A stretch of 64,000 nt of DNA from Arbacia lixula (lineage: Eukaryota > Echinodermata > Echinoidea > Arbacioida > Arbaciidae), in the NCBI GenBank assembly GCA_963669155.1, contig OZ022583.1, forward strand, positions 17,540,805 through 17,604,804, written 5' to 3'. The notes under the pieces are model-generated. The model made no database searches. It had not been told where the DNA came from and was given only the letters and a program-made list of their open reading frames with translations. The translations under genes were made by a program, and so were the position numbers. Shown here one piece after another: positions 2,910 through 62,520 of the stretch. Position 1 is the stretch's first letter. Each line of letters opens with the position of its first letter.

Positions 2910-3917
2910 CTAAATGTGCACATACAGGGTCGTAGACTCCTTTCCATCCTGATTGTCATCATCATCACTTTCTGGATCACCCTCTAAATGGCGAACATTG
3001 CCTTGCTTTCTCTGTCCATAGTTACCTGTCTTGCCAGGAAACTTTCCTTTCATCCAAGCTTTGCCCTTAATGTTAGAAGCTGCACTCTTCATATTGTGGT
3101 TGGCATTTGACTTGCTTTTGCACTTCTTAGCAAAGTGGTCTTTCCCTCCACATTTCCTGCAAACTTTGCCCTTTGCTGGACAGCATGGGTCTCTTCCAAA
3201 ATGCCCTCTGTTCCCACATCTGAAACACTCAAAGTCATGTGTACTAGTAGTAGGCATATGTCTTGGCTGGCTATGGCTATGTGAAAGTCTATTCACGTGT
3301 TGACTAACTTTGGGCTGGCTTGAACTGTCTTTCAATTTCATGGTATGAAATTGCCCTTCAACGGCCTCTAATGCAGCAGCTATTGCTAAAGCATTGGTAA
3401 GTTTCAACTCACCCCCTTTCTCTAGCAGACGTCGTCTCAATTTGTCAGATCTGCAGTGCTGCACAACTTGGTCCAATAACTGATTGTCCAAATCAGATTC
3501 CACGTAATTGCACCCAACAGCAAGTTGTTGAAATCTCGTCACGTACTGGGCGACTGTTTCCCCATCTTCCTGCTTCGTTCTGCGAAACAAATGGCACTGA
3601 AATGTGGCATTTGGTGTCACCACATAATGCGTATTCAATGCATCCACGGCTTTCTGGTACTCCTCCTTCTTTCCAGTATTCGAAAGCGTCTTAAAAGTTT
3701 CCCGAACTGCAGGTCCTGCGGTGAAGAGAAGTAACGCTCTCCGCTGCGCTTTCTGCCCCGCCGTACTCCCATCGAGAAACAGGCCACGACTGTCTGCGTA
3801 GGCTTCAAACTCTTCAAGCCATGCCTTCCACTTCACGCTCACGGCGCTTGCATCGCCAGTCGGGTCGAAATGAGGAACACCGCGAAGTGCTAGAAATTCA
3901 GCTCCAGCGACTGCCAT
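2910..3917 (-). mobile_element. Orphan Gag-like ORF of a Ty3/Gypsy-type LTR retroelement
   Basis: A single uninterrupted 335-aa ORF. The N-terminal half has the helical capsid-like pattern of retrotransposon Gag proteins (YVTRFQQLAVGC, DQVVQHC, LRRRLLEKG, LTNALAIAAALEA). Two CCHC zinc knuckles follow: CFRCGNRGHFGRDPC at about residues 231-245 and CRKCGGKDHFAKKC at about 253-266. The C-terminus is basic, then acidic (DPESDDDD). Gag packages element RNA into particles. No protease, reverse transcriptase or integrase reading is visible downstream on this strand (below 2910), and no LTR pair was recognised. It is therefore either a truncated insertion or a gag gene retained alone. Intactness over 335 codons with no stop suggests youth or selection. 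It lies about 1.2 kb beyond CNP, antisense to it. Confidence 0.8.
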
Positions 3918-6076
3918 GATGAAACATTCCTGCTCAAAGCCACAGATTCGTAATCCACATGTTTATCCTCGTCGCCAATGTCATATTTGTGGCCCGAAAT
4001 GTGAAAATAACAGCACCATCAACACATGATTTACCAGTTCAACATCGGCACGTATTTATTGCCAGTATCCATATTGTTCCAACCCCTGAGCGCTTGCTTA
4101 CATCGCGCACATGCGATCTGACCTGGGGTCAGGTTAATACGTCACACTCATCTGCATATACATGTATCTCATGCATATTCATTACCATGACACCGGCGTG
4201 TACATAATCGGGTGTGATTGAACACGCGCCTAAAATCAACCAGCAACAACAACAACAACAATCGATCCTCGATGGGACGAGTGGTGATTTGAGACCTTGA
4301 ACTTGGCAACTTTTTAAAAAAATAAAACTTTGAGGGCGCTCTACGAGAAAACGATGCATGTTTTTTTATCAATCAAGTAAAAGACTATATATCTGCAAAA
4401 TAGTGGGTTCTAAACTAATTGAGTTTTAAAGTAATCAGCTTCCAAACATGCACCCGAACACATTGCCATTGACGCTCAACACCATTTTCCTTGACGTCAT
4501 GCGTAAGAATGGGTGGTCCGATCGGCACCAGAATACATTGTGCATGTTAAGACTATAAAGTTCTTTCAATTGACAGGAAATGAGCAATGTAACTCATCTA
4601 ACTTGGCTGCAACAGTCAATCAAAAATAGCAAATTTTATTTAAACTCAGTTGTTCGATCACGCATTGGTTGCTAAGGGAGGCCGTATCTTAGCAACCATT
4701 TGACCTTGGGGCAAAATATTTCAGAATCTTCTGTCAGACACTTGGGGGAACATTTGGTGCGAGTTTGGAGAAAATTGAAGGGGGTTGGGTTACAAATCGT
4801 CTGAAAATTGGTTGATTTCACGTGGATTGACCCACATCGTAACGTTATCATATTGTCATATGAATAAAAAAATGAATTTTCATGTATGACGTCACAAACT
4901 TTTTTAATCGTTTTTGCGTATCTCAGTAATTCTTGATAAATTTTCTCCCAAATTTCAGTATGCTGTGCCAGGACATTGTCCTATGGTAAAGTTTTCTTCA
5001 TTTTTCATTTTTCCCACGTCTTCAAGGTGTAAATTTGATTAAGGGCATTAATGTCAAAATTGGACCTATGTATGTGTAATGTCAATAGGAGAGTCATTTA
5101 TTTGAAATCATGAATTGACATGACGATCTTTTAGGAGCTGTATGTCGCTTATGTTTGGACATTTTACTCTGTGATTTAGTATGATGTAGCTGAGTCTTCT
5201 AGCTTTCGGGGTCGTCGTCTCCGTTTATCAAATAGATGTCGGGATCACGGCAGAATTAATTGCAGCTTGAATATTGACTTCTATAAATCATTCTAGCCCC
5301 AGCTGTGCATTACGTGTTAAGTGAATAGGAAGAATTTCTTCTGTTCAATCCCTCACTTTGTCATTCTCTTTGAAATTTTCTTTTCCATTTTCCTCTCGCC
5401 CCTTTATCTTCATTGAATATTATTTACATGTTGTTAGCACATACATGTGATCATTTCGGCAAGTCTTGAAAATGTTAGTATGTTGTAGGTGTGCTATGTG
5501 CTTTATTGAGAGTTGCCTCTGATTTCTATTGAATAGATGGTCACAGTGCACTTACCAGCCCGTGTCTGTGCACGAATTTGTCAATACAGACCACCTTATA
5601 CTTGTCCACAAGTATGTCTCGTTATGATACTGTTATTTCTGAAAATGTGATGCAAGAAAGTTAAGAGAAAAATAAATGCTCAATTTCTAATCATGTAATT
5701 TGTTTCAAGTTTTGGAATGAGTAATTACTGTAACATTGACGCTTCTTATCATTTCTTGTATAGGAAACTTAAGTTTTGACGTTAGCTCACATTATTTGAC
5801 ATTTGACATTTGACATTATTTGACATTATCAATTTGAAGTGTATATAACGTATACCTGTTCCAGTTGTAGTAAAGTCATTTAGGTTATGATATGAGCTTC
5901 CAATTGAAACCAAAAACACCATCATTGTTGAGACAAAATGGAAGCAAACTTGAGTTTGTAAAGAGGTGGTTAACACAATAAATATGAGCTTGCATGTTCA
6001 CAATAAGAAGGAAGTGACCACTCTAAAGACAGTTTAATCCTTTATTTCAGTGGTGGTCACTGGTGCTGATACTCCC
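3918..6076. other. Intergenic region between CNP/Gag and APPBP2, no gene seen
   Basis: No supported gene. It holds the leader side of the Gag-like ORF (3918-4300, with a CAA-rich run near 4243-4262), AT-rich unique-looking sequence, and a short TTTGACAT direct repeat near 5795-5830. Confidence 0.5.
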
Positions 6077-7584: not shown

Positions 7585-10500
7585 ATGGCGGTTGCCAGTG
7601 AGCTGCAATGGGTCCCTGAAACCCTGTACAATGCCGCAATTTCTGCGGTTGTTTCGACGTATTCACGCCACAGGAAAGAGCTGAGACCTTTACCAGAAGA
7701 TATCCAGTTTGACATATATTACAAAGTGAGTATTACTAATTAAATGATACTATAAAGTGTCGACTGTTCTGCTGTAACTTCGTGACAAGCTGTACTGCAG
7801 CCTGTGCACAGGGTGTGCAGCTGTTGTGAGTGCCAATATGATTATGAGTGAGCTGTGTTGACAAATAAAATGCCTGATCATGACTTGCGTGACTGTGGTT
7901 TGGAGATGTTCATGCTTGTGAGTGCCTAAGGAGTAGTGATATATGGATAACCACCCAATCCTCCTTTCTGCTACTGATTTTATTATATCTTGAAAGTTGA
8001 AATTGTGTAATATCCCATACATGTAGCTTTTACTTTTAGGGTGAATGAAGGAGGAAACATGTATCGTGTGCAAGCCATGACTTGTGTTTATTTATTTTTT
8101 TTAAAGTGGAATGTGTTGACTATTGAAAAAAAGGTAAAAGCCATGCACATTTGATACTTGAGTTTCAAGCGCTACGGTGCTATCAACCTTACTATTAGCA
8201 AACACTATTAAACAGTGATCAATTTGCAGAAATGTTTAATTCTTTAGCACTTAATGAATTTACTCATTGCTCACTATTGGTTAGCTATGAAATATTTGGC
8301 GGGTGCTTATGGGCACTCCCAAAATAGACAAGTCCATCGCTAAAAAAGGAAACGTCATCGCTAAGTTGTCGCAGTATGATAAGATTTTGTTAAGTTGGAA
8401 GATTTCTGATCTCAACCTATTTTGATAATTATACCGGTAGACATATTTTACATTTTCAGTTGATCTATAATAATGATAAACCTGTAACTAAGTCATCTGA
8501 CTAACTACGATGAACTATTATAGACTCTTGTATCTTTCTGGGCACAGCCATCTTAAATGGTTGACCATGATATCGACTTTTTAAAGACAATTAACTCCAA
8601 TAAAGTCATTTCATTGCTAAACGTTGCGATCGGCTCATTCATCAATTTTTGTCTGAATAAAGTTCAGTAGAGATGTACGTAGTAATCACTCTTCCTGTTA
8701 GTCTGTTGGTCTGTTAGTCTGTTGGTCTGTTATAAAAATATTCTTTAACTTGCTCTCATTTCTTTTTTCTGTATCAATTGTGATCAAACTTGTACAAAAG
8801 ATCCTTGGTTAATACCACATTTGTCATCATGAGGATGATGAAGCCATGCACATAATTTTTCTCAAAGTTTTTGTTTGACTTGCTCTCATTTCTTTATTTC
8901 TGCATCAGTTGTGATCACACGTGGTACAAATGATCCTTGGGTAGTACCATGTGTGTCCTCATGAGGATGATGGGGTCAAAGGTCATCTAGGGGTCAAAAG
9001 ATCAAATGATATGAGGCCATGTGCATCAGTTTTCTCAAGTTTTTGTTTGACTTGCTCTCATTTCTTTATTTCTGTTTCAGTTGTGATCACACTTGGTACA
9101 AATCATCCTTGCATAATACCACATGTGTCTCTTCATGAGGCTGATGGGGTCAAAGGTCATCTAGGGGTCAATAGGGCAAATGATATGAGGCCATGAACAT
9201 TTTTTTCTCAAAGTTTTTGTTTGATGTGCTTTCATTTCTTTATTTCTGCATCAATTGTGATCACACTTGGTACAAATGATCCTTGGGTAATACACCATGT
9301 GCCTCTTCATGAGGGTGATAGGGTCAAAGGTCATCTAGGGGTCAAAAGGTTTTTAAAAAATATTTGAAAAAAAGAAGTTAGCACTGAAATCGATTGCGAA
9401 ATCAGGTGAGACTCGTGGTTCGCGAACCACCTTTGTATGATTTACTTTTTGTTTATGCTAAATGCGATGGCCTGAGTGAAATGCAAATCTTTTGCTAACA
9501 ACTTTAGCAATGATCTAGTAAGGACTTATTGTGTGAGGGATTTAGCGATTAATGCATATATAATGTTTGCGTCAATATCAATATGTACATACAATTCAGA
9601 GTTCATTACATTTAGTATTATTCAAATGATGTGAACATGTGAAAATCTACTGCATGAAATATGTACATGTATAATTGAAATAATGGAGAAGGTAGGCCTA
9701 CATGTATGTGTATAATTTATTTTTAAGTAAAATGGGTTTTCCTTTTAAAGAGATTTGAATACATTTGTTTGAAGTGTGTATCATAAGGATTGAGCATTTT
9801 GGACTTGGAGCAGGAAGCAGCTCCACAACTTGGGAGCGGCGGCAGAGAGAGTTGTGTCGCAGTAACACATCTTCACATGCGGACCAATATTTCTACTAAA
9901 AGAGTAGCCTATACTATTTCTGTGACATCAGAGGGAGAAAAGTGCTATTGCTACATGTAGCAGCCTTCATACTCAGTATTACGCAATCATGTGGATGAGC
10001 ATTCATGAGTGAGAAACAGTGCAGAAAAATGGAAATGGCCATTATGGCATCTTGCCAATGTTCATGGAAGCACAAAAGGAAAAAAAAAAAAGGGCAAGCA
10101 AAAAGAAAGGAAAGATAAGAGAAAAAGAGGAGGAAAATAAAGCTTTTGACATTCTGTAGCTTGTATCATGGGAGAAGAAGTGATCCTGCAAACTACAATC
10201 CTTCAAACAACAATTGAAACTTGGTGTTTATATTGCTCTCCTCAAGTCATTACTACATGACATTGTCAGTACATGTGTATTTTCTTTTCCCTTCGCATTT
10301 CAGCTGTATAAGCAAGGCAGACTTTGTCAGCTTGGCATGGAGTTTTGTGAGCTGGACATCTTTGCCAAAGTCCTCAGAGTGAATGATAAAAGGTAAGCTG
10401 ACCCCCAGACTAGTACCTGTGTAAAAAGCTTTCATCCTATCATTAGTAGTGGACCAACATTCATTAACATTTACAACAGGAGCATGTCAAAGAGTAAAGA

Positions 10501-13500: not shown

Positions 13501-16500
13501 TACTACGGAGCATACCAGGAGGGCCCCTAATTAACCTGGCTTCCATGCTTTTAGACAATTCTAATTCAAACTGAAAAAAAATAGTCTAGACATCACAAAA
13601 CTAAACACTCTTTCATTCTTCTCTCTTCTCCCTCTGTTTGTCTCGAATTTGGGCAAGGCGGAGAATAAAATATTTATATGTAGCCTAGCTTCCAGGGTGT
13701 TTCCAGAGTGAATTTCTACTTCAAACATTCCAAAATATATTTGAGTCTACATACAAGACTACTCCTCCTCTTTGCCTAGTTAGTCCTTCAAACTATAGTG
13801 TGAGCTGTTTATACGGTGACTTCTGGATGAGAGATATATCCAGCAGTCTGGAGGCAAGGCTATGTTTCATACTGACACTCCAGATATTGTGTTATATTGT
13901 ATTGTTGGCATTTCTACTTCTCTATTTCTATTCTATTCTATTTAGCCTTTTTCTCTCCACTGCTGAAGGAAGGCCTCCTCCTCATTTTTCCATCTTGATC
14001 TATCTTGTGCCGTTCATTTCCATGTCACACTACCATATTCTCTAATATCGTCAATCCACCTCCTACTTTGTCTGCCTCTTCTTCCGGTGTTTGCTCTGGG
14101 GGTCCAGATGGTTAATTTATATGTTCATCTGTCATCTTTCCTCCTGGCCAGATGACCAGCCCACCTCCATTTCTTTGATTTAATTTCCTTTACTATGTCC
14201 CATACTTTAGTTTTCTTTCTCAAAACCTGGTTTCTAACTTTGTCCCTCTTTGTAGCACCAATCATAATTCTTTCCGTAGCCCTTTTGGTTACTCTAAGTT
14301 TTCTCTCCAGTCTCTTAGTTGTGGTCCATGTTTCTGCTCCATAAGAGAGAAGAGGTATGATGCATTGGTTGACATTGGTTGAAAATCTGTTTCTTCTCTA
14401 TCAATCCTTAGATACCTCCTCGAGCCTGGGGTTGGTTTCAATGCACCTCCACCCTCGTCTCTCTTCACTGTGTGATGTTACTTGCTGCCTTCTTCTCCTT
14501 CGCTTCCCTTGTGTCATTCCTTCAAGTAGCAGCTTCTAGAAACCTCTTTTTTGTATGCTATGTCCAGCATTTTTACAAGCTCTCTTTCCTGTACACTCTC
14601 CAACATTTCTCTCTACACTTCTATATTGCTAATTTCCATAATACTTCTTTGCTCCTGCCTGTTACTTTTACCCCTCCGTACAGGGAACATTTTGGTGTGC
14701 GACATCCCAAGTATTCAGACGTTCTCTTAGATTTTGGTTTCTACTTGCTTAATGTCGACTCAATATGCCAGTCAACAGCAGTGTACCAGGTCAGTGGATA
14801 ATATTATACAGGAACCAATTCCAGAGTTTGATTGATGAATGTTAAAGGGAAAGTTCACCCTGGAAATATTTTGGTTTCAATAAAAGGAAACACGTGAAAG
14901 AAACATATTGAAGGTTTGATGAAAATCGGGTAAAGGAAAAGAAAGTTATTTGAATCTAAAGTTTTGATTTTGTGACGTCATGTGCGTGGTGCTCCCCCAT
15001 ATGTTGCGTACTACTTTTTAAAAAAAATTGTCTTTTTTCTATTCTTTGATGAAGGAATACATTCTTTTCATAGTGACATGTGTGTAAAAATATGTGTCTA
15101 ATGCTATATCAAACACACAGGTGAAATGGTAAATATCCTTTTGAGGAAATGGACAGTTTCCCCCCAAAATGTACACAACATATGGGAGAGCACCTCGCAC
15201 GTGAGGTCACAAAATCAAAGCTTTAAATTCAGATATCTTTGTTTTTCTTGGACTGATTTTCATCAAACTTTAACTTATATGTTTCTTTCATGTGTCTCCT
15301 TTAATTGAAACCAAAATATTTTCAGGGTGAGCTATCCCTTTAAGTGATTGCAGTAGTAGAAGTAGTAGTTGTAGTACTCATAGTAGTGGCAGTAGTAGTA
15401 GTGTGATAAATTTTAGTAGTTGTGGTAGGAATACTCATAGAAGTGATAGTTGTAGTAGCATAAGTAGTAGTAGAAACATTACGTACCAGTACGAGTAAAG
15501 TCAAAGTAGTATTTGAAAGTATTATTAGTAGCAGTATAATTAGTATCGGTAGTGCTTGCAGAAGGAGCTTTGGGGCAATTTATGCTGAGAAGAACAAGCA
15601 GTTGGAGAAAGAGAAGAAAGTACAGTGAGATTGAATTAAATTGAATTGAATTGAATTAAAATGAATGGAGATTGAATTCAAACACTACACAGCACATGGC
15701 TATATGAAAAGGAAAGTCCACCATGAAGTTTAATTGTTTTTTTTTTTATTAAAGCAAAACAATTAAAGAAACATTTAAGTGAAGGTTAGAAGAAATTTTG
15801 ATTATGTGATGTCATGTGCAAGGTGCTCTTGCTTATGTTGTGTATTTTTTTTTTCTCATAAGGAAACCATTTTACCTTACATTTGATATATTGTTAGACT
15901 CATCTTTGTAAACCTATACCTTTATGGACAAGATTTATTCCTCATAAAAAGCAGAAAAAGGGGAAGTTTTGTGGAATTATACAGCACACAACATGAGAGA
16001 GCACCTCACTCTTGATGTCACAAATTAAAAAATGCTCCTATTAAAACCAAGTTAACTTAAGGGTGGACTTTCCCTTTAAACTAATGATCCCTATCATGTC
16101 ATCACTTGAATTTGATAGATTCCCTCTATATCTTATTCTCTTCCATTGATAGCAAGCCCTGGATATCCGGTTATCTGCCTTTGGCGGGAGAAACCTCCAT
16201 GTAGCTGTTGCCCACGAAGATCTTGCCTATGCCTCTTATGTGCACCAATACAGCTACGGCAAATTCGATAGTGCCAAGTGAGTCGTCACAATTTCCTCCT
16301 CTTTTGGGGCTTCCTTTGGTTTTTGTCTAGCAATCACTTTTCCTATTAGTATGTTGATGTATTGGTCTGTTACAAAAAGTTTTTGTTTAACTTATTCTTA
16401 TTTCTTTATATCTGCATCAATTGTGTTCATACTTGGTACATATGATCCTTGGTAATAACACATTTGTGTTGATGAGGATGGTGCGGTCAAAGGTAATCTA

Positions 16501-19500
16501 GGGGTCAAAAGGTCAAATGATATGAGACGTAATTTTTCTTCAAGTTTTGGTTTAACTTGCTCTCATTTTTTAATGTCTGCATCAATTGTGTTCATACTTG
16601 GTTCAAATAATCCTTGGGTAATACCGCATGTGTGTTGAGGATGATGAGGTGGAAGGTCATCTAGGCACCATTTTAAATATTTGAAAAACAGCTTAGCCCT
16701 GTTTATTGATTGCAAAATCAGGCGAGACTCGTGGTTTGCAAACCACCTTGTTTTATTAGTAAAAAAAAAAGACTTGATGCAAGAGAAAAGGGTAATCATA
16801 TACTGTTATGTGCCATTTGCGCTTCTTTTGCGACTTATGTTTGCATATGTTGTTTAAACTGTGAGAGCACCGTGGTTTAGCCACTCACTTAACTGCCACA
16901 AACACAAACAAAAGAGAGAAAATACATTTACTTGTCATATGTCTCTGCCGGCAGCCTGTAGCAGTATACAAATGATGCACAGGTTTGAGTGGGTCGGTAG
17001 GAATTGTGTACACAAGTTACCTCTGAATTGCCTGAACCCACGAGGCGAAGCTGAGTGGGTTTCGGGCAAAATTCAGAGGTAACGAGTATACACAATCCTA
17101 CTGACCCACGAAATAAACCTGTGCATCATCTGTTTTATAGAATGGGCCCCCAAATCTGATAAAAAAGGGTAAAATCTCCATTAACATAATTTACCGGATG
17201 CATGGCTAGCCATGCGTCAGTATTTACCGGATGCATGGCTAGCCATGCGTCGGTAATTACCGATGCATGGCCAGAATTACCGACGCATGGCTGTGATTGA
17301 CCAATCAGATTGCAGAGATCCATCTTCATCATCAATCATCATCAATGATTGGAAAATCTGTCAAGACTAAAATTGTTGTCTTCTTTCACGTTGACAAGTG
17401 TCCAAATAACACAGCTAAAAATATGACATGATTTTCTCCATACACCATGTCAAGTGGACAAATAGAGTCTTTATGTTTAGAACTACCAAGTTCATTAAGC
17501 TTCGATTTGATAACAACCACTTCATATCAGGAAAGACAGATTTACTGCAATTTACTGCGATTGTCCAGAGTGGCGTCGAGTGCCCAAACGAACGTATTTG
17601 TAATGTACAGTGTACATGCTCTAGTAGGCAACTCACCGCAGCACACACTCTTACAGTGCTGCGACAACGTAGAATTCAGACCCGAGTTTGTCCACTTCTC
17701 CGTTAGATATTACTTCCAAATTTACGTGTTTCACTCCTGCAGAGCGTTTGAATATACATGTAGAAAATGAGTGTTCGATGTTGTGGGATAAATTTATACT
17801 TACTGGCAACGTCTGAATCGTCCAAAATCTGTTTCAATTCTTCACCTAACTTTACCGAAGCTTCTCGAGTTTCGTGGGTGCCGCCATTTACGGTAAACAA
17901 TATCGGTATCGATCATACTAAATCTCGATATCGATCATATTAATTCTCGGTATCGCGATATCGTCTTGATATCGCGTGCTGCCAGTAAAAAACAATGCAT
18001 GGTAAATTACGGGTAATTAACCAATCAGATTGCAGAGATTCTGACACCCATTCTATAAAAAAATGATGTGACATTGTGTTTCAAAGTTTGTGATTTATAT
18101 CATGTTAAAATATTATATTATATTATATAAGATTATATCTGCTAGTTAGCAATAGCTAGCAAGCCACGAACACCATGTTTGCAACTTAGTTACCAATGAA
18201 AAAAGAAATTTACATTTACCCATGCAAGTAGGGATAATACATGCACCGAGTCCCAATAACGTTTGGCAATAATAAGCCTACATTTGTGAATTTTGCGGGG
18301 ATATACGGCTACATAATCACTATCTGGATACTGATTAATAGAAATCTCAACACATGTTCAGATTTCTATGAACCAATTGGATGAGAATGCTGCGTGTGGC
18401 AGACTGTGGGGTCCAACTCGAAATATCACAAACAAGTCAGTGGCACGGCCTTGCCTGTTATCGCTCGGCAGTGATTACGGGATGACTTCTGGATTATATG
18501 TCGCCCCCCCATATGCACGATTTTGGATGCTTTCAGGGTTCTGATATTTATTTTTTATGTATTTTTCCCCCCTGTTTAGAAGAGTGTGTCGTTTATTGTC
18601 CTTTACAGGAAATTCATCTTCCACTGGTTCATGCACATAAATAAATACAACATATATTTTAAAAAACATTAAAAGCATAATTATTTATACATGCAATGCT
18701 GAAACATTTAATGATTTGATTAATCTGAGTTTTTGAAAGTCGGTCAATTAAATATTATTTTTCATTACTTCATTCATTATTTGTTTGCATGAAAAAGCCA
18801 ATAAAATGCAAGAGAAGCAGCAGAATTGAGAGAGAAAGAGAATAAAGATATGCTGTATTATTGACAATCAATCCTTAATATTGTAGTAATTTTGTTATGC
18901 CTGTCATGTGTATCAAATTATGCATACTAGTATATGTACTAATATTGCCAAATTCAATTAAAAGTGAAATTGTCATCATCATTGGGTTTCTGTGCTTGTG
19001 TTTAGGGAGCATGCAGAGAAAGCCATCAGTATCATCACCCAAATCTTACCAGAAAACCACCTCTTACTGGCCTCATCAAGGAGGGTCAAAGGTGAGTCAC
19101 TCACAGCCTCTTCCTCAGTCACTTCGTTCCCATTTTTGTCTGTAAACCTTTTACGTTCCACTTGGATTATTTCACCATCAACATACCCAAATCCCATTTA
19201 GCACCATTTTTGTACGGTACACAAAGGGATTAACAAATAGTAAAGGGAACACATACCAAATTCTGTTTATCCGTACGTATATGCTTATGTCCGTGTTGTG
19301 TATCCAACTGTCGGATGCATCCCATGTCAAGGTCATTTTGAAGGACAAATTACGAGATGATTAAAACTTTCTTTCACAAAACAAGCAACACATTTTCCAA
19401 TTGTGGACCCAAACCTACATACTTTCTCTTCTGACTCATGCACAATTATCAATCTATCTGTTGTGTATTTTGTTTTTGTTTTTAATTGTGTGTGTTGCAA

Positions 19501-38392: not shown

Positions 38393-41300
38393 ATGAATAT
38401 GGAGTTCTTCTTCCTTCAGTGTCTCACCTACGCTATTGCGTTGACAGTATTACTTGCAGGGACAGCTTTTGTTTTCCTCACCCTGTACACCTACTACCAG
38501 CATGAAAAATACGCCCACATTCCGGGTCCCAAGAGGGAAAAGTGAGTAGAAATATTTTGGAATATTTGTTTGGGACTGGCCTAGCCCCGGGCCGGGACTG
38601 AGCGGACTGGTCGCAGTAAGGACTAGCCGTATGGCAAGCCGTTTTAACATTTATTCCTATTTCTTGATATCACGAATTCGATTTCTTGATATCAAGAATT
38701 TGATTTCTTGATATCAAGAATTCGATTTCTTGATATCAAGAATTGCCATTGCTTTACCACACAAAACCATTTCTTGATATCAATAATTCGAATTCTTGAT
38801 TTCAAGAAGTCGAATTCTTGATATCACGAATTCGATTTCTTGATATCAAGAATTCATTTCTTGATATCAAGAATTCTAATTCTTGATATCAAGAAATGGT
38901 TTTGTGTAGTTAAGCAATGGCAATTCTTGATATCAAGAAATCGAATTCTTGATATCAAGAAGTCGAATTCTTGATATCAAGATTTCGATTTCTTGATATC
39001 AGAAATTCCATTTCTTGACATCAAGAATTCGATTTCTAGATATCAAGAATTGCCATTGCTTTACTATCAAGAAATGGTTTTGTGTAGTAAAGCAATGGCA
39101 ATTCTTGATATCAAGAAATCGAATTCGTGATATCAAGAAATAGGAATAAATGTTAAAACGGCTTGCCATATGGCCGAATCGATCGCGAGGCTAGTACTCG
39201 TAGCAGGGATGTGTTAGGAAGGAGAAACAACTCGAGCATATATTCAAACATCTGTATGGATACTAAAGCGTGCTAATGATTGTCAAAAGCATTCCACAAT
39301 CACTACAATGCTTTGATGTCCCATGCGCGGCACCGATATATAGCTGCTGTCCACTTGGAAAGCAATATCTTTAATTCACTGTTTTGTCTCTGAAAGCTAT
39401 GTTTCTTATCACATTTTTGTGCAATTTTCAACTTATTACGGGCAACCCCACTAAAAATCCAGTACTCGGTTTTCTTCTAAATAATTGTTGAATGATGCAC
39501 AAACGGAGATTCTTACTTACACAATTAACAAATTTCTTCACTTTCCGCAGATTTCCGCAAATGTGGGAATATCAAAATTATATCTTAAGCTCTTTATTTT
39601 CATTAACAGAGTTTGCATGCATTTGCGTGCAACTGAGATATTTTAGTACTAGAAAAACTGTTTATTTTTGTTCTCTGATATCTCTTTTCCTCACAAAAGT
39701 ATTATGCAATCCAACAGAACTGGACAAGTGAAATAAGACTCTACATTTCTTTTGTTCTATCTGAGAAACCGTTGCTATGCAATCATGCTTGTTATTATTA
39801 AAACACCTGAAAAGCACATGCTGAGAAGACAATGTTTTTGGCGGTGCCACGCATGGGTTCAAAGAAAGAAAGTAATTCATATCCTTCCATAACACATCCC
39901 TGGTAGTAGCTTCGAGGATGCGTTGCATTTGCCACACGCCGTCAATGCAGGGCTCGCGAGACTACTGTATAGACTCGATGAGATCGACAATAACGGGAGA
40001 GGGATTATTTCAGCTGCGGACCCAGGATTTTTCTAGAGTGGGAAAAGTTTGAACATATACATAGGAGGGGGGAGCAGAGCGACATTTTCTTGATTATTGC
40101 TGTATCAATGTTCAGTGCATGATTCTCCATAAACAGAGGGGGATTCATTAGTGCATCTAATTGTTCCCCTGTCTGGAAACGCATTTGTATTCTTCCTGAA
40201 ATATATTCCGTTCGCGCACATTCACAATAATTATTTCAGCATGTCTGTATAAATACACTAAGAGCCATCATACAAAACCAAATTGGGTAATTCATGTACA
40301 CATGTAGGCCTGTTTGAATTATTTGGACATTTAGCTTATAAGCAATCATAAGTTTCATATTAAAAATTATGTTCGTGAGTTCTGCGATTCTCAATGAGTA
40401 TATGCCACATGCATGAATTATTATAATTTTGTAAATCCGTTCTACATTTTTTTTTTCAAGATCACTTCATGAGTCATTCAGACACAATAAAGGAATATAA
40501 ACGTACAAATGCACATCTTTAACATGCATATTGTGCATTTGACAATTCTTTTTTTTCTCTAGCTCTTTTAATTCCCTCTTCTCCCCCTGTCTTTGTTGCC
40601 TTTTAAAGAAATTTATCATGCTTTGTTTACTTCTTTACCCCCCCCCCCCCCCCACACACACACACCCTCTTGATCTCCATTTCTTTATTTCACCCACCCC
40701 TTCCACCTTCTCTCTCTGTTTTTTTTTTAATTATTATTCACAGTTTCTACCTGGGAAACACTGCGACTTTCATTAAAGAAGAGGGTTTCTTCAAGGTCTT
40801 GAATGAATGGTAAGGGGTTGATTATTAATTTCAACATTTTCTTCTTCTATGAATTGTCATGTAGAACAAGGATATAAGGAAGGGGTTGATTATTAATTTC
40901 AACATTTTCTTCTTCTATGAATTGTCATGTAGAACAAGGATATATTTGTGTTCACAATTGTCCATAAATGCAGGTTGTACTAATGTAATGTTTGAAAGGG
41001 TTAATGGCGTCCCTCGGTATTGACAGTCGCCTTTGTAACTTAGTGATGACTGATTTAGAGTAAGATTGTGTACATGTATTGTTTGCTTGATGTCTCTATA
41101 TTTACTTTATGACTTATGGGAATATATTCCTGACAAAACTAATGGCATCTCAGAGTGTGACATGAGTGTTTGACAGTTAGCCAGCTAGGGGCTAGTGGAT
41201 ATCAGATTCAGGGGATGACAGTTAGCCAGCTAGGGCCGGCTAGTGGATGTCAGATTCAGGGGATGACAGTTAGCTAGGGGCTAGTGGATGTCAGATTCAG

Positions 41301-44300
41301 GGGATGACAGTTAGCTAGGGGCTAGTGGATGTCAGATTCAGGGGATGACAGTTAGCCAGGGGCTAGTGGATGTCAGATTCAGGGGATGACAGTTAGCCAG
41401 CTAGGGGCTATGGATGTCAGATTCAGGGGATGACAGTTAGCTAGGGGCTAGTGGATGTCAGATTCAGGGGATGACAGTTAGCCAGGGGCTAGTGGATGTC
41501 AGATTCAGGGGATGACAGTTAGCCAGCTAGGGGCTAGTGGATGTCAGATTCAGGGGATGACAGTCAGCTTGGGGCTAGTGGATGTCAGATTCAGGGGATG
41601 ACAGTTAGCCAGGGGCTAGTGGATGTCAGATTCAGGGGATGACAGTAAGCCAGGGTCTAGTGGATGTCAGATTCAGGGGATGACAGTTAGCCAGGGGCTA
41701 GTGGATGTCAGATTCAGGGGATGACAGTAAGCCAGGGGCTAGTGGATGTCAGATTCAGGGGATGACAGTTAGCCAGGGGCTATAAGTGGATGTCAGATTC
41801 AGGGGATGACAGTTAGCTAGGGGCTAGTGGATGTCAGATTCAGGGGATGACAGTTAGCCAGCTAGGGGCTAGTGGATGTCAGATTCAGGGGATGACAGTA
41901 AGCCAGGGTCTAGTGGATGTCAGATTCAGGGGATGACAGTTAGCCAGGGGCTAGTGGATGTCAGATTCAGGGGATGACAGTTAGCTAGGGGCTAGTGGAT
42001 GTCAGATTCAGGGGATAACAGTTAGCCAGGGGCTAGTGGATGTCAGATTCAGGGGATGACAGTTAGCCAGGGGCTAGTGGATGTCAGATTCAGGGGATGA
42101 CAGTTAGCCAGGGGCTAGTGGATGTCAGATTCAGGGGATGACAGTTAGCTAGGGGCTAGTGGATGTCAGATTCAGGGGATGACAGTTAGCTAGGGGCTAG
42201 TGGATGTCAGATTCAGGGGATGACAGTTAGCTAGGGGCTAGTGGATGTCAGATTCAGGGGATGACAGTTAGCCAGGGGCTAGTGGATGTCAGATTCAGGG
42301 GATGACAGTTAGCCAGGGGCTAGTGGATGTCAGATTGAGGTGATGACAGTTAGCCAGGGGCTAGTGGATGTCAGATTCAGGGGATGACAGTTAGCCAGCT
42401 AGGGGCTAGTGGATGTCAGATTCAGAGGATGACAGTTAGCCAGGGGCTAGTGGATGTCAGATTCAGGGGATAACAGTTAGCCAGCTAGGGCCGGCTAGTG
42501 GATGTCAGATTGAGGGGATGACAGTTAGCCAGGGGCTAGTGGATGTCAGATTCAGAGGATGACAGTTAGCCAGGGGCTAGTGGATGTCAGATTCAGGGGA
42601 TGACAGTTAGCCAGCTAGGGCCGACTAGTGGATGTCAGATTCAGGGGATGACAGTTAGCCAGGGGCTAGTGGATGTCAGATTCAGGGGATGACAGTTAGC
42701 CAGGGGCTAGTGGATGTCAGATTCAGGGGATGACAGTTAGCTAGGGGCTAGTGGATGTCAGATTCAGGGGATGACAGTTAGCCAGGGGCTAGTGGATGTC
42801 AGATTCAGGGGATATGTTAGAGCTTTATTTTTGTTTTATGTGACATCAGAAAATCTGTATCTTCTTCTTCGAGATTGAAAAAGAGGACATATGTATTGAC
42901 CAAAAATAAAAACGAAAGGAAAATAGGAAAAAGGTGAGGCTATGACATCATAGCGTCATTCAATTGTAAATTTGCCTCCATCAAAATACTGGTCATTGAA
43001 ACATTCATCATATTCAGTCACATTCCCCTCAAATTTGTTAAAATATGTTCCCCCTATTTGTCAACTTTTACAAAGAGTGACTTATTTTTGAACCAGAGAT
43101 GTCTTGATCTACTTTTGGATTATTGGGGAGGATGCATTTTGGTCTACGTGATCACTTTGGGGTAATTTTAGACCTAAAATTTTCTGTGGATCAGATAATT
43201 AATCTAGAACACAATAATGTCCATTGTGCATCACACATTTACCCACAATGACTTTTCTGCCATAAGCATCATGATGGCAGTGGTTATATTAGTAGATTGA
43301 ATTCTTAATGTGATATTCACATATTTTTGGTCCAAATTTGCCCCAAAATGAAAATCTTATTTAATTTTTCATGGATTATTCCAAGAACAATGACTGATAA
43401 AATGTCACGGAAGCTGCTTCAAAAATATGTGACTTCCATTGACTTTATGATGTGTAAATTTCAACTTAACTCGTTGCCCGCTTTGTTCGACTCGCGGCAC
43501 ATACAGCGGGCTGCCAAGTTTGACTCAAGTCACATTTCGCGCACAATGCATACGGAAGGCATTTAATTGTATTGTGCGCACACACATACAATAGCGACGC
43601 GTGTATTGCATAAGGGGATCAAAGTATCAATAGGCAGGAAGTTTCCCAGGACAGGAAGTCTATTGATAAGTACCCAGGGTCAATTTCAATAGAGGAGTTT
43701 AGTTCATTGTTAGCTTACTCTTTTTGAATGCCCCATTTAAATCCTAAATTGCTTGGCTCATTATTCCCATAAAGACATGGGTTTGGTATGTAATGAAAGC
43801 TAAAGAACACATTTTTATGAACTAACTTAGTGAATAACTTTCATTAGGACATATTGAATATAAGAGGTATAAAATAGCCTCCAAAACGATAATTTGGAGA
43901 CAGAATGTAAAGTTATAAGTCTCAGAATCTATGATATTATACATGGCAAAAATGATACCATTGTCAAGAGTATTAATTTCTTTTAGACTTTGCTACACAT
44001 TTTTTTTTCATCACTACAAACCAATAAAAAGTTATTGCAAGTTAAATAAGACAGTGCACGCAAAACCCCTCTGAATGTGGCACCCTGAAATTAATGTGGC
44101 GCAGGGGAGATAGTGTGCGTGGCGGGCAAAGAGTTAATTCAAGGTGTAACTCTCAAGTCATCATTTTGCAAAAGTGTCAATTTTTTTTTCAATAACCAAA
44201 GTTATTTTGATGTTTTCACCAGGAAATTGAATTGTTCATTTAAATCAATGTATCAGGCGCAGAGAATTTGGTCAGCTGTACGTCTGCTTTGCCATGTACA

Positions 44301-55636: not shown

Positions 55637-56812
55637 AGTGAAAAGGTTTTCTGGGGTAATTTCAATTTACAAAGAAATTTTAGGCATACACCCAGTAGTA
55701 AGGATAGCGTGCTCCATCCTGTAAATGAACGAAAAACAAGTCAGACAAAAATCTTGGAACCAGACGGGATTTGAACCTGCAGTCTACTGCTTACCGGGCA
55801 GCGACTTAACCACGCAAGCTATTTCTAGTTCACGGGTCAAGACACGACAACATGGAAACAAATACCCGAAAGAGTCTCATTTCACCTGACTCATTAATAT
55901 TCATGAGTAGTCCGCCTTAGGGACAATTTTAGTGAAAAGGTTTTCTGGGGTAATTTCAATTTACAAAGAAATTTTAGGCATACACCCAGTAGTAAGGATA
56001 GCGTGCTCCATCCTGTAAATGAACGAAAAACAAGTCAGACAAAAATCTTGGAACCAGACGGGATTTGAACCTGCAGTCTACTGCTTACCGGGCAGCGACT
56101 TAACCACGCAAGCTATTTCTAGTTCACGGGTCAAGACACGACAACATGGAAACAAATACCCGAAAGAGTCTCATTTCACCTGACTCATTAATATTCATGA
56201 GTAGTCCGCCTTAGGGACAATTTTAGTGAAAAGGTTTTCTGGGGTAATTTCAATTTACAAAGAAATTTTAGGCATACACCCAGTAGTAAGGATAGCGTGC
56301 TCCATCCTGTAAATGAACGAAAAACAAGTCAGACAAAAATCTTGGAACCAGACGGGATTTGAACCTGCAGTCCACTGCTTACCGGGCAGCGACTTAACCA
56401 CGCAAGCTATTTCTAGTTCACGGGTCAAGACACGACAACATGGAAACAAATACCCGAAAGAGTCTCATTTCACCTGACTCATTAATATTCATGAGTAGTC
56501 CGCCTTAGGGACAATTTTAGTGAAAAGGTTTTCTGGGGTAATTTCAATTTACAAAGAAATTTTAGGCATACACCCAGTAGTAAGGATAGCGTGCTCCATC
56601 CTGGAAATGAACGAAAAACAAGTCAGACAAAAATCTTGGAACCAGACGGGATTTGAACCTGCAGTCTACTGCTTACCGGGCAGCGACTTAACCACGCAAG
56701 CTATTTCTAGTTCACGGGTCAAGACACGACAACATGGAAACAAATACCCGAAAGAGTCTCATTTCACCTGACTCATTAATATTCATGAGTAGTCCGCCTT
56801 AGGGACAATTTT
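55637..56812 (-). repeat. Four perfect-period 294-bp tandem units, each with a tRNA-like region
   Basis: Units start at 55637, 55931, 56225 and 56519; a fifth begins at 56813 and breaks off. Period is exactly 294 bp with only a few substitutions (for example TCTACT/TCCACT). Each unit carries, on the minus strand, a tRNA-like segment (55755-55831, 56049-56125, 56343-56419, 56637-56713): A-box-like TAGCTTGCGTGG, B-box GGTTCAAATCC, an anticodon-like arm CTGC-CCGGTAA-GCAG, and ends GAACTAGA / TCTGGTTC that can pair. This suggests a tRNA-derived SINE that has become a tandem array. Confidence 0.9.
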
Positions 56813-56985
56813 AGTGAAAAGGTTTTCTGGGGTAATTTCAAGATTTTTCCAAGATTTTTGTCTGACTTGTTTTTCGTTCATTTACAGGATGGAGCACGCT
56901 ATCCTTACTACTGGGTGTATGCCTAAAATTTCTTTGTAAATTGAAATTACCCCAGAAAACCTTTTCACTAAAATTGAGAGATCAT
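56813..56985. repeat. Inverted partial unit closing the 294-bp array
   Basis: The fifth unit starts normally (56813-56842), then the sequence turns round: 56843-56985 is the reverse complement of the first about 140 bp of the unit, ending TTTTCACTAAAATT. The array therefore ends in a hairpin junction. Confidence 0.85.
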
Positions 56986-56992
56986 GTGTTAA

Positions 56993-57082
56993 AGAACCTG
57001 TCCATAGCAGCCACCTGTCTATAAAGGCCACACTTTTTGTTTCCCATGGGTGGCCACTATAGACAGGTTTCACTGTATAAAC
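56993..57082. repeat. Short inverted repeat with CACTGTATA end
   Basis: AACCTGTCCATAGCAGCCAC / CTGTCTATAAAGGCCACAC faces GGGTGGCCACTATAGACAGG then TTTCACTGTATA. It looks like one end of a dispersed DNA element; similar text (CCTCGGTATAAGTGGTC) is at 26041. Confidence 0.45.
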
Positions 57083-60974: not shown

Positions 60975-62520
60975 GTCAAAATTCCCTAGAAACTAGTAGA
61001 AACCAGTCGAGACCGTCTACTGGTTTCTACTGGCGTTTCAGAAACCAGTAGAGTGGAGGCCTATACTGGTCTGAAAAGGAACCGCAAAATCAAACCAGTA
61101 GAAACCAGAAGAGTCTAGCTAACATGTCTAATGGTATTAAAGACCAGCAGAAACCAATAAAAACAAGTGAGATCTAATGGTTTGAAAAGGTGTGTGAAAA
61201 ATACAAAGTCAAACCAGTAGAAACCATTAGATCCTAGTGGATTCTACTTGTTGGATTCTACTGGTATTGGAGACCAGTAGAAAGTTAGAAACCAATAGAA
61301 ACCAGTGAGATCTATTGGTTTGAAAAGAAGTGTGAAAAATACAAAGTCAAACCAGTACTTAAGAAACCATTAGAGATCAGCTGTGGATTCTACTGGTATT
61401 TAAGACCAGTAGAAACCAATAGAAAATAGTGAGATCTAACATGTCTAATGGTTTGAAAAGGAGTGTGTGAAAAATACAAAGTCAAACCAGTAGAAACCAT
61501 TAGAGACCAGTGGATTCTACTGGTATTGGAGACCAGTAGAAACCAATAGAAACCAGTGAGATCTAATGGTTTGAAAAGGAGTGTAAAAATACGAAGTTAA
61601 ACCAGTAGAAACAAGAGGATTCTACTAGTATTGAAGACAAGTAGAAACCAATAGAAACCAGTGAGATCTAACATGTCTAATGGTTTGAAAAGGAGTGTGA
61701 AAAATACAAAGTCAAACCAGTAGAAACCATTAGAGACCAGTGGATTCTACTGGTACTGGAGACCAGTAGAAACCAATAGAAACCAGTGAGATCTAATGGT
61801 TTGAAAAGGAGTGTAAAAATACGAAGTTAAACCAGTAGAAACAAGAGGATTCTACTAGTATTGAAGACAAGTAGAAACCAATAGAAACCAGTGAGATCTA
61901 ACATGTCTAATGGTTTGAAAAGGAGTGTGAAAAATACAAAGTCAAACCATTAGAAACCATTAGAGACCAGTGGATTCTACTGGTATTGGAGACCAGTAGA
62001 AACCAATAGAAACCAGTGAGATCTGATGGGGTTTTTTTTTTCAATTTTTTTCAATTTCAATTTATTCATATTTCTGTTCAATACATGTAAAATAAAAGCA
62101 ATAATACATCAACATAGTCAGTCTTTGACAAAACAAAACTAGTATAATGATGCAAAATATTACATAATGGTCAATATCAAACATACAATGGATATAGGTA
62201 AAGAAATATGAATGGGGCCTATTTAAAACAAGCTTGTAAATCGTATAGACCCCAAAATAATGTGGATTAAAAGAGTACGGATAAACAAATTGACCAAAGA
62301 AATAAACAAAAGGAATCATAAACAACTCAAGAAACAACATGAAAACAAATCGAGAACAAAGGAGTGTAAAATACGAAGTTAAACCAGTAGAAACTAGAGG
62401 ATTGTACTGGCATTGAAGACAAGTAGAAACCGATAGAAACCAGTAGATTTCACTAGTATTGTAATATAAAACAGTGAGATCTAATGGTTGAAAAGCAGTG
62501 TAAAGTCTGATTTCAAAATG
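60975..62520. repeat. Satellite of CCAGTAGAAACC units, intron 1 of the second CYP46 copy
   Basis: About 1.5 kb of a hierarchical repeat. The short motif ACCAGTAGAAACCA(A/T)TAGA, and its complement TCTACTGGT, are arranged in a higher-order unit of roughly 130-190 bp with TGAGATCTAA, ATGGTTTGAAAAGGAGTGTG and AAAATACAAAGTCAAACCAG. Both orientations of the short motif occur inside each unit. Interrupted by an insertion at about 62032-62356. Confidence 0.9.
62032..62356 (-). mobile_element. Insertion in the satellite, LINE/SINE 3'-end-like
   Basis: Starts at a T10 run followed by TCAATTTTTTTCAATTTC and splits a satellite unit between ATCTGATGG and GGAGTGTAAAATACGAAG. On the minus strand it would end in a poly-A-like tail, as at retroposon 3' ends. 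Family not recognised; resembles the insertion at 20125 in style only. Confidence 0.45.

Follow-up and report, generated by a model that had tools for sequence, protein, structure and literature searches.

Four tandem units and a terminal inverted arm at 55637–56976 of the window (the whole 64,000-nt stretch of Arbacia lixula DNA analysed here) probably stem from a young, local, DNA-level tandem amplification of a 294-bp non-coding repeat with a degenerate tRNA-related stretch inside it. This stretch is best explained either as a tRNA pseudogene or as an old tRNA-derived repeat of which it forms the head. We set out below the structure of the array and its right-hand junction, the tRNA-like stretch with its polymerase III (pol III) signals, and the relationship to repeats elsewhere.

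Architecture of the 294-bp array

Tandem Repeats Finder delimited an array at 55637–56841 with a period of 294, 4.1 copies, 99% matches and no indels. The array holds four full head-to-tail units of 294 bp (55637–56812): unit 1 (55637–55930), with the left array end at AGTGAAAAGG, unit 2 (55931–56224), unit 3 (56225–56518) and unit 4 (56519–56812), followed by a truncated fifth copy comprised of the first 29 bp of the unit (56813–56841). Comparison of the units revealed no differences between units 1 and 2 and two variable sites in total, namely one substitution at unit position 149 in unit 3 and one at unit position 86 in unit 4. The initial annotation had described four units with an exact 294-bp period and few substitutions, and this description holds. 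With two substitutions and no indels across four units, the copies are likely to be recent or homogenised. Each unit also contains a 20-bp palindrome, 90% self-complementary, at unit positions 253–272 (55889–55908 in unit 1, recurring every 294 bp). A coding tandem protein was ruled out, as the six frames of an endless tandem contain 9–30 stops per 882 bases.

An assembly or library artefact, either a fold-back chimera or a collapsed or expanded repeat, would account for the identity of units 1 and 2 and for the inverted right end, an inverted end being a typical signature of a chimera. This explanation is highly improbable, given the private substitutions in units 3 and 4 and the continuation of each side into different, non-array sequence.

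The junction and the inverted arm

The right end of the array is closed by an inverted partial copy of 130 bp (56847–56976), which covers the sequence between the 3′ edge of the tRNA-like stretch and a point 7 bp beyond the unit border, and lacks the tRNA-like part itself. Such a closing copy had been recognised in the initial annotation, but its right border, placed at 56985, included 9 nt of flank; the arm ends at 56976. Between the truncated fifth copy and the arm lies a 5-bp spacer, GATTT (56842–56846), and the junction reads TTTCAAGATTTTTCCAAGATTTTTG, with CAAGATTTTT occurring twice (...TTTCAA-GATTTTT-CCAAGATTTTTG...). The join combines a short direct duplication with microhomology, which supports a fold-back switch. 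During microhomology-mediated template switching a strand slips and, where a few bases match, moves to the opposite strand; the right-end junction, with its two occurrences of CAAGATTTTT, fits a slip and a switch of this kind. We propose that the units would have multiplied through replication slippage, unequal exchange or break-induced replication, and that the strand under synthesis would, at the right-hand side, have jumped to the complementary strand at the short match CAA / CAAGATTTTT, traversed one partial unit in reverse and returned to the chromosome. A related template-switching model concerns yeast (PMC10766183). Replicative or unequal-exchange amplification had been suggested in the initial annotation and is plausible here.

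The inverted copy complements units 2 and 3, left junctions included, at every position (100%), but has one mismatch to unit 4: the arm carries T at unit position 86, where the adjoining unit 4 carries G. Because the arm lacks the unit 4 substitution, a simple fold-back onto unit 4 needs a later change or another template unit. The fold predicted for unit 4 together with the inverted arm is a hairpin of −278.5 kcal/mol (z −31, none of 100 shuffles as good), and a transcript across this region would be expected to fold into a hairpin of ~130 bp. Matches to miRNA families at 56801–56980 (MIR8007, MIR1435, MIR5048 and MIR2655) all fall below their gathering scores, and were rejected as miRNA genes since the short inner part of the inverted repeat explains them. 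Just right of the array, a separate hairpin-forming inverted repeat at 56995–57069 (arms 57013–57031 and 57050–57068) resembles a small inverted-repeat element.

The two outer ends of the array, 55637 and 56969/56976, face outwards and lie within 7 bp of one unit position. This arrangement stands against local amplification: slippage does not predict it, whereas an inverted-end mobile element would. The candidates are non-autonomous DNA elements of the inverted-end or foldback type, and Pearl/CvA-like or Helitron-like elements with a tandem core; the terminal 123–130 bp would then serve as inverted arms and the array as the core. The outer ends do carry terminal inverted repeats, 123-nt arms which are 100% identical (AGTGAAAAGG...CCTTTTCACT), and the near coincidence of their unit positions fits as well. 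Precedents include the bivalve CvA, reported with subterminal inverted repeats and a tandem core (PMC5874043), and foldback elements, listed as a source of satellite DNA in PMC9659126. Nevertheless, we consider an inverted-end element rather unlikely. No target-site duplication (TSD) of 2–15 bp was found at either of two candidate end pairs, the borders which the test covered. The two 80-bp flanks have no direct 7-mer in common, the left end has no counterpart of the right arm's final 7 bp, and no other copy is present in the 64-kb window. The left and right flanks of 80 bp do share ACTTTTTGTTT, an inverted low-complexity match of 11 bp, which was taken as chance.

It is also conceivable, at a low probability, that the whole array is mobile, with a tandem core bearing a tRNA-type promoter and identical, outward-facing arms of ~125 bp, and that it moves as fold-back DNA or as a multimeric intermediate, the satellite then being the transposon. 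Should ends that face outwards in this way be present elsewhere in the genome, then it would be the array that is mobile, and satellite birth would be linked to transposition.

The tRNA-like stretch and the SINE question

On the minus strand, each unit contains a tRNA-like stretch, located at 55764–55821 in unit 1, 56058–56115 in unit 2, 56352–56409 in unit 3 and 56646–56703 in unit 4. The Rfam tRNA model RF00005 matches all four (20.8 bits in units 1, 2 and 4, 18.5 bits in unit 3; model positions 8–63 of 71), at scores below the gathering score of 29. The covariance search thus agrees with the initial annotation in placing a tRNA-related match in every minus-strand segment, but at scores beneath the family cut-off. 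The corresponding E-value of 0.28 over 4227 families amounts by arithmetic to ~7e-5 for one family in the 1.6-kb stretch searched. In an equal-size control covering 36001–64000, with E up to 10, units 1, 2 and 4 were returned at E 4.9 (4227 families) and unit 3 dropped out. Searches of ~28-kb pieces (1–28000, 28001–55600 and 36001–64000, E up to 10) produced no other tRNA matches.

ARAGORN reported no tRNA genes under default settings. When relaxed and applied to a two-unit stretch, it called Thr(ggt) in both units, against a background of calls in 50 of 2000 shuffled units and in 6 of 188 other chunks of the window. The earlier description of a minus-strand tRNA-like stretch in which GGT occupies the anticodon is supported. 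The case for a foldable region is weaker than was stated: its folding is no better than that of shuffles (z +0.26 for 71 nt, z −1.08 for 91 nt). A functional tRNA gene or cluster was ruled out from the RF00005 scores of 18.5–20.8 bits, relative to a cut-off of 29, and from the empty default ARAGORN result. Judged from the nucleotide sequence, tRNA ancestry of the stretch is likely and a working tRNA encoded by it is not.

Within the tRNA-like stretch, the B box GGTTCAAATCC occupies 55767–55777 on the minus strand of unit 1, with minus-strand starts at 56071, 56365 and 56659 in units 2–4. It matches the consensus RGTTCRANTCC exactly in all four units. The only further exact site in the 64 kb, at 1515, lies opposite a 198-aa open frame (1103–1699), is without a tRNA match, and was taken as chance. 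The A box agrees with the consensus at 10 or 9 of 12 positions, depending on placement. Of the two pol III boxes named in the initial annotation, the B box therefore stands in full, whereas the A box is weaker than was stated.

Runs of T such as T5 stop pol III. One T5 run lies at 55747–55751 on the minus strand, 26 nt past the B box start, and is followed by a second T5 at +41 and a T4 at +133. A single pol III transcript spanning the unit is unlikely because two T5 runs follow the B box, and the earlier suggestion of a tandem pol III transcription unit is, given these T runs, plausible only for a short RNA of roughly 90 nt. We infer that the tRNA-like part may be a passenger, or at most the promoter of a short pol III RNA that ends at the T5 run.

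These signals bear on two retrotransposition readings. The first holds that a true SINE, with tRNA head, body and tail, was tandemised via nested insertion or unequal exchange, and that the array is the first stage of a SINE-derived satellite. The exact B box and the tRNA-like stretch are in keeping with this. A SINE normally has a transcribed body without an internal pol III terminator, while here the T5 runs at +26 and +41 and the T4 at +133 lie downstream of the B box start, and the A box is weak. Neither a TSD, at the two end pairs, nor a poly-A or simple-repeat tail, in the unit sequence or at the unit joins, was found, though arrays could have lost both. Single copies are likewise absent from the 64-kb window: we found no second copy of the unit, and the best match outside the array, to the junction region, spans 28 nt (E 0.013). 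Some 100 bp precede the tRNA-like stretch, provided that the outer ends mark the end of the element, and such an upstream segment would be unusual for a SINE. The anatomy of SINEs is given as a head, a body, a LINE-derived region and a simple-repeat tail in the review PMC10702118, which also offers precedents in SINE-derived satellites of reptiles and, in a jerboa, SINE multimers with as many as eight units. On balance we regard the tandemised SINE as improbable. The label of SINE for the unit is unproven, and the initial annotation's view of the unit as a whole SINE is not upheld, there being no TSD, tail or second copy found in the window and T5 runs soon after the B box.

In the second reading, a multimeric RNA was reverse-transcribed and its 5′ part was inverted by twin priming, a mechanism that gives 5′ inversion during reverse transcription. 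The 3′ end in the tRNA sense would then be at 55637 and the inverted part would be on the 5′ side. The order and orientation of the inverted segment relative to the tRNA-sense array do fit, as does a 36-nt overlap between the inverted and direct parts. However, no TSD was found at the two end pairs, a poly-A tail is absent, the internal T5 runs oppose a long pol III RNA, and there is no ribozyme match to make circular templates, which together leave a twin-primed origin very unlikely.

Terminal-repeat elements with a tRNA-like LTR (TRIM, of the Helenus/TRIMp3 type) were also considered. They resemble the array in having a tRNA-like sequence within a short element able to form tandem arrays; the zebrafish LTR-11_DR occurs in such arrays, and animal Helenus elements are reported from six phyla (PMC10886601). 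They differ in features which we did not find here. No segment is repeated inside the unit except short palindromes, no LTR pair was found, pure purine runs of at least 8 are absent from both strands, and there is no 4-bp TSD at the two end pairs. A TRIM origin is thus extremely unlikely and was ruled out on anatomy. Candidate primer-binding sites, TGG sites in the unit, were judged by eye without a tRNA set, and one of them starts a stretch complementary to the tRNA-like part of the unit. Tandem arrays are also reported for Cassandra (PMC7215508).

Metazoan retrozymes share with the array tandem units of ~300 bp and low GC, and are present in many invertebrates (PMC7229834). They are distinguished by their hammerhead ribozyme, which we did not find in the 294-bp unit: the core CTGANGA is absent from both strands, apart from a single minus-strand site with one mismatch, and the 12 Rfam matches obtained with E up to 5 include no ribozyme. 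A retrozyme was ruled out on these grounds.

Tandem repeats in the window and in other animals

Local amplification is favoured by the lack of a TSD at the two end pairs and of a second copy in the window. The 64 kb contain nine other tandem arrays with units of at least 32 bp, two of which overlap by 12 bp, and all ten arrays of this class together make up ~7.7% of the window. Because these nine other arrays make amplification common here, local tandem amplification needs no SINE-specific machinery.

We compared the inverted arm with the other arrays by searching for minus-strand copies of the first two units of eight of them, and found none in five of the eight. The array at 17189 has a minus-strand self-match of 82%, the 22-bp array at 38659 is complementary to itself, with identity reaching 100% over 42 bp, and for the array at 61385 the minus-strand matches are diverged (68–85%), both internal and just to its left at 61209–61282. 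An inverted relative next to an array is therefore not unique in the window, but the long perfect arm at 56847–56976 is the sole such case among the nine arrays examined.

Other repeats of the window are described here in their own right. The region 61209–62029 holds a 230-bp (2 × 115) tandem array together with the diverged inverted relatives just mentioned, inside the array and immediately to its left (61209–61282). A 174-bp tandem array is accompanied, at a distance of ~7 kb, by related sequence of 72–82% identity (8680–9433 and 16328–16749), an older dispersed relative of the tandem repeat. There is a 41-bp minisatellite at 41238–42813 (37.7 copies, 93% matches), and the 22-bp array at 38659–39139 (21.8 copies) of the self-complementary unit ATTTCTTGATATCAAGAATTCG, with many miRNA-family matches below the gathering score. 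The octamer TACATGTA occurs 29 times in the window (1–64000), compared to ~2 expected from base composition. Pfam matches were obtained for three of the seven open frames given and none for the other four. One frame has a P-loop domain above the cut-off and a CNPase match below its own cut-off, and another has a tetratricopeptide repeat. The third, a minus-strand open frame of 350 aa (2910–3962), has a zinc knuckle above the cut-off and gag/PNMA-like matches below it, and is probably the gag of an LTR retrotransposon.

Tandem repeats that include a tRNA-like stretch have been published before, and the array is a fairly ordinary example of them. The review PMC10702118 describes PolIII/TAN of the newt Cynops (~360 nt), OAX/satellite I of Xenopus and Rana/polIII (~250 nt) as tandem repeats whose descent from SINEs is unproven. 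The array resembles them in its head-to-tail units, each with one tRNA-like stretch, here below the Rfam cut-off. Rana/polIII makes up as much as 10% of some genomes according to this review, in contrast to one array of 4.1 units in the 64-kb window. The same source could not confirm the abundance of PolIII/TAN, considers OAX units too long to count as a proper satellite, and doubts the tRNA origin of the salamander Hy/polIII; the word "invert" is absent from its main text. SINE-derived satellites, which it treats for 56 squamate genomes alongside the jerboa multimers, are similar to the array in being tRNA-related, in some cases of few units, and in reflecting early satellite birth. The squamate satellites have known parent SINEs, and most of their arrays use SINE parts with a longer terminal unit, whereas the array here is without an identified parent element. 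Among invertebrates, PcH-sat of the limpet Patella is also a tandem repeat similar to a SINE (Nin-SINE), but has a 179-bp unit without boxes A and B, comprises ~10% of the genome and is mainly pericentromeric (PMC11121367). Reviews relevant to this background are PMC9659126 and PMC6947457.

No description of a tRNA-like array that ends in an inverted copy was found in the literature searched, the inversion being covered by part of that searching. The 294-bp unit was likewise not found in the literature by text searching, which cannot query the letters of the unit, and an exact DNA pattern for relatives of the unit gave no matches in the prokaryote-genome and viral collections, which agrees with the animal-like look of the window.

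Local amplification at the DNA level thus remains our preferred explanation. The array appears to capture a very early stage in which a tRNA-related sequence gives birth to a tandem repeat. The rearrangement at its end is still legible, and such loci allow the breakpoints to be read ahead of their decay.
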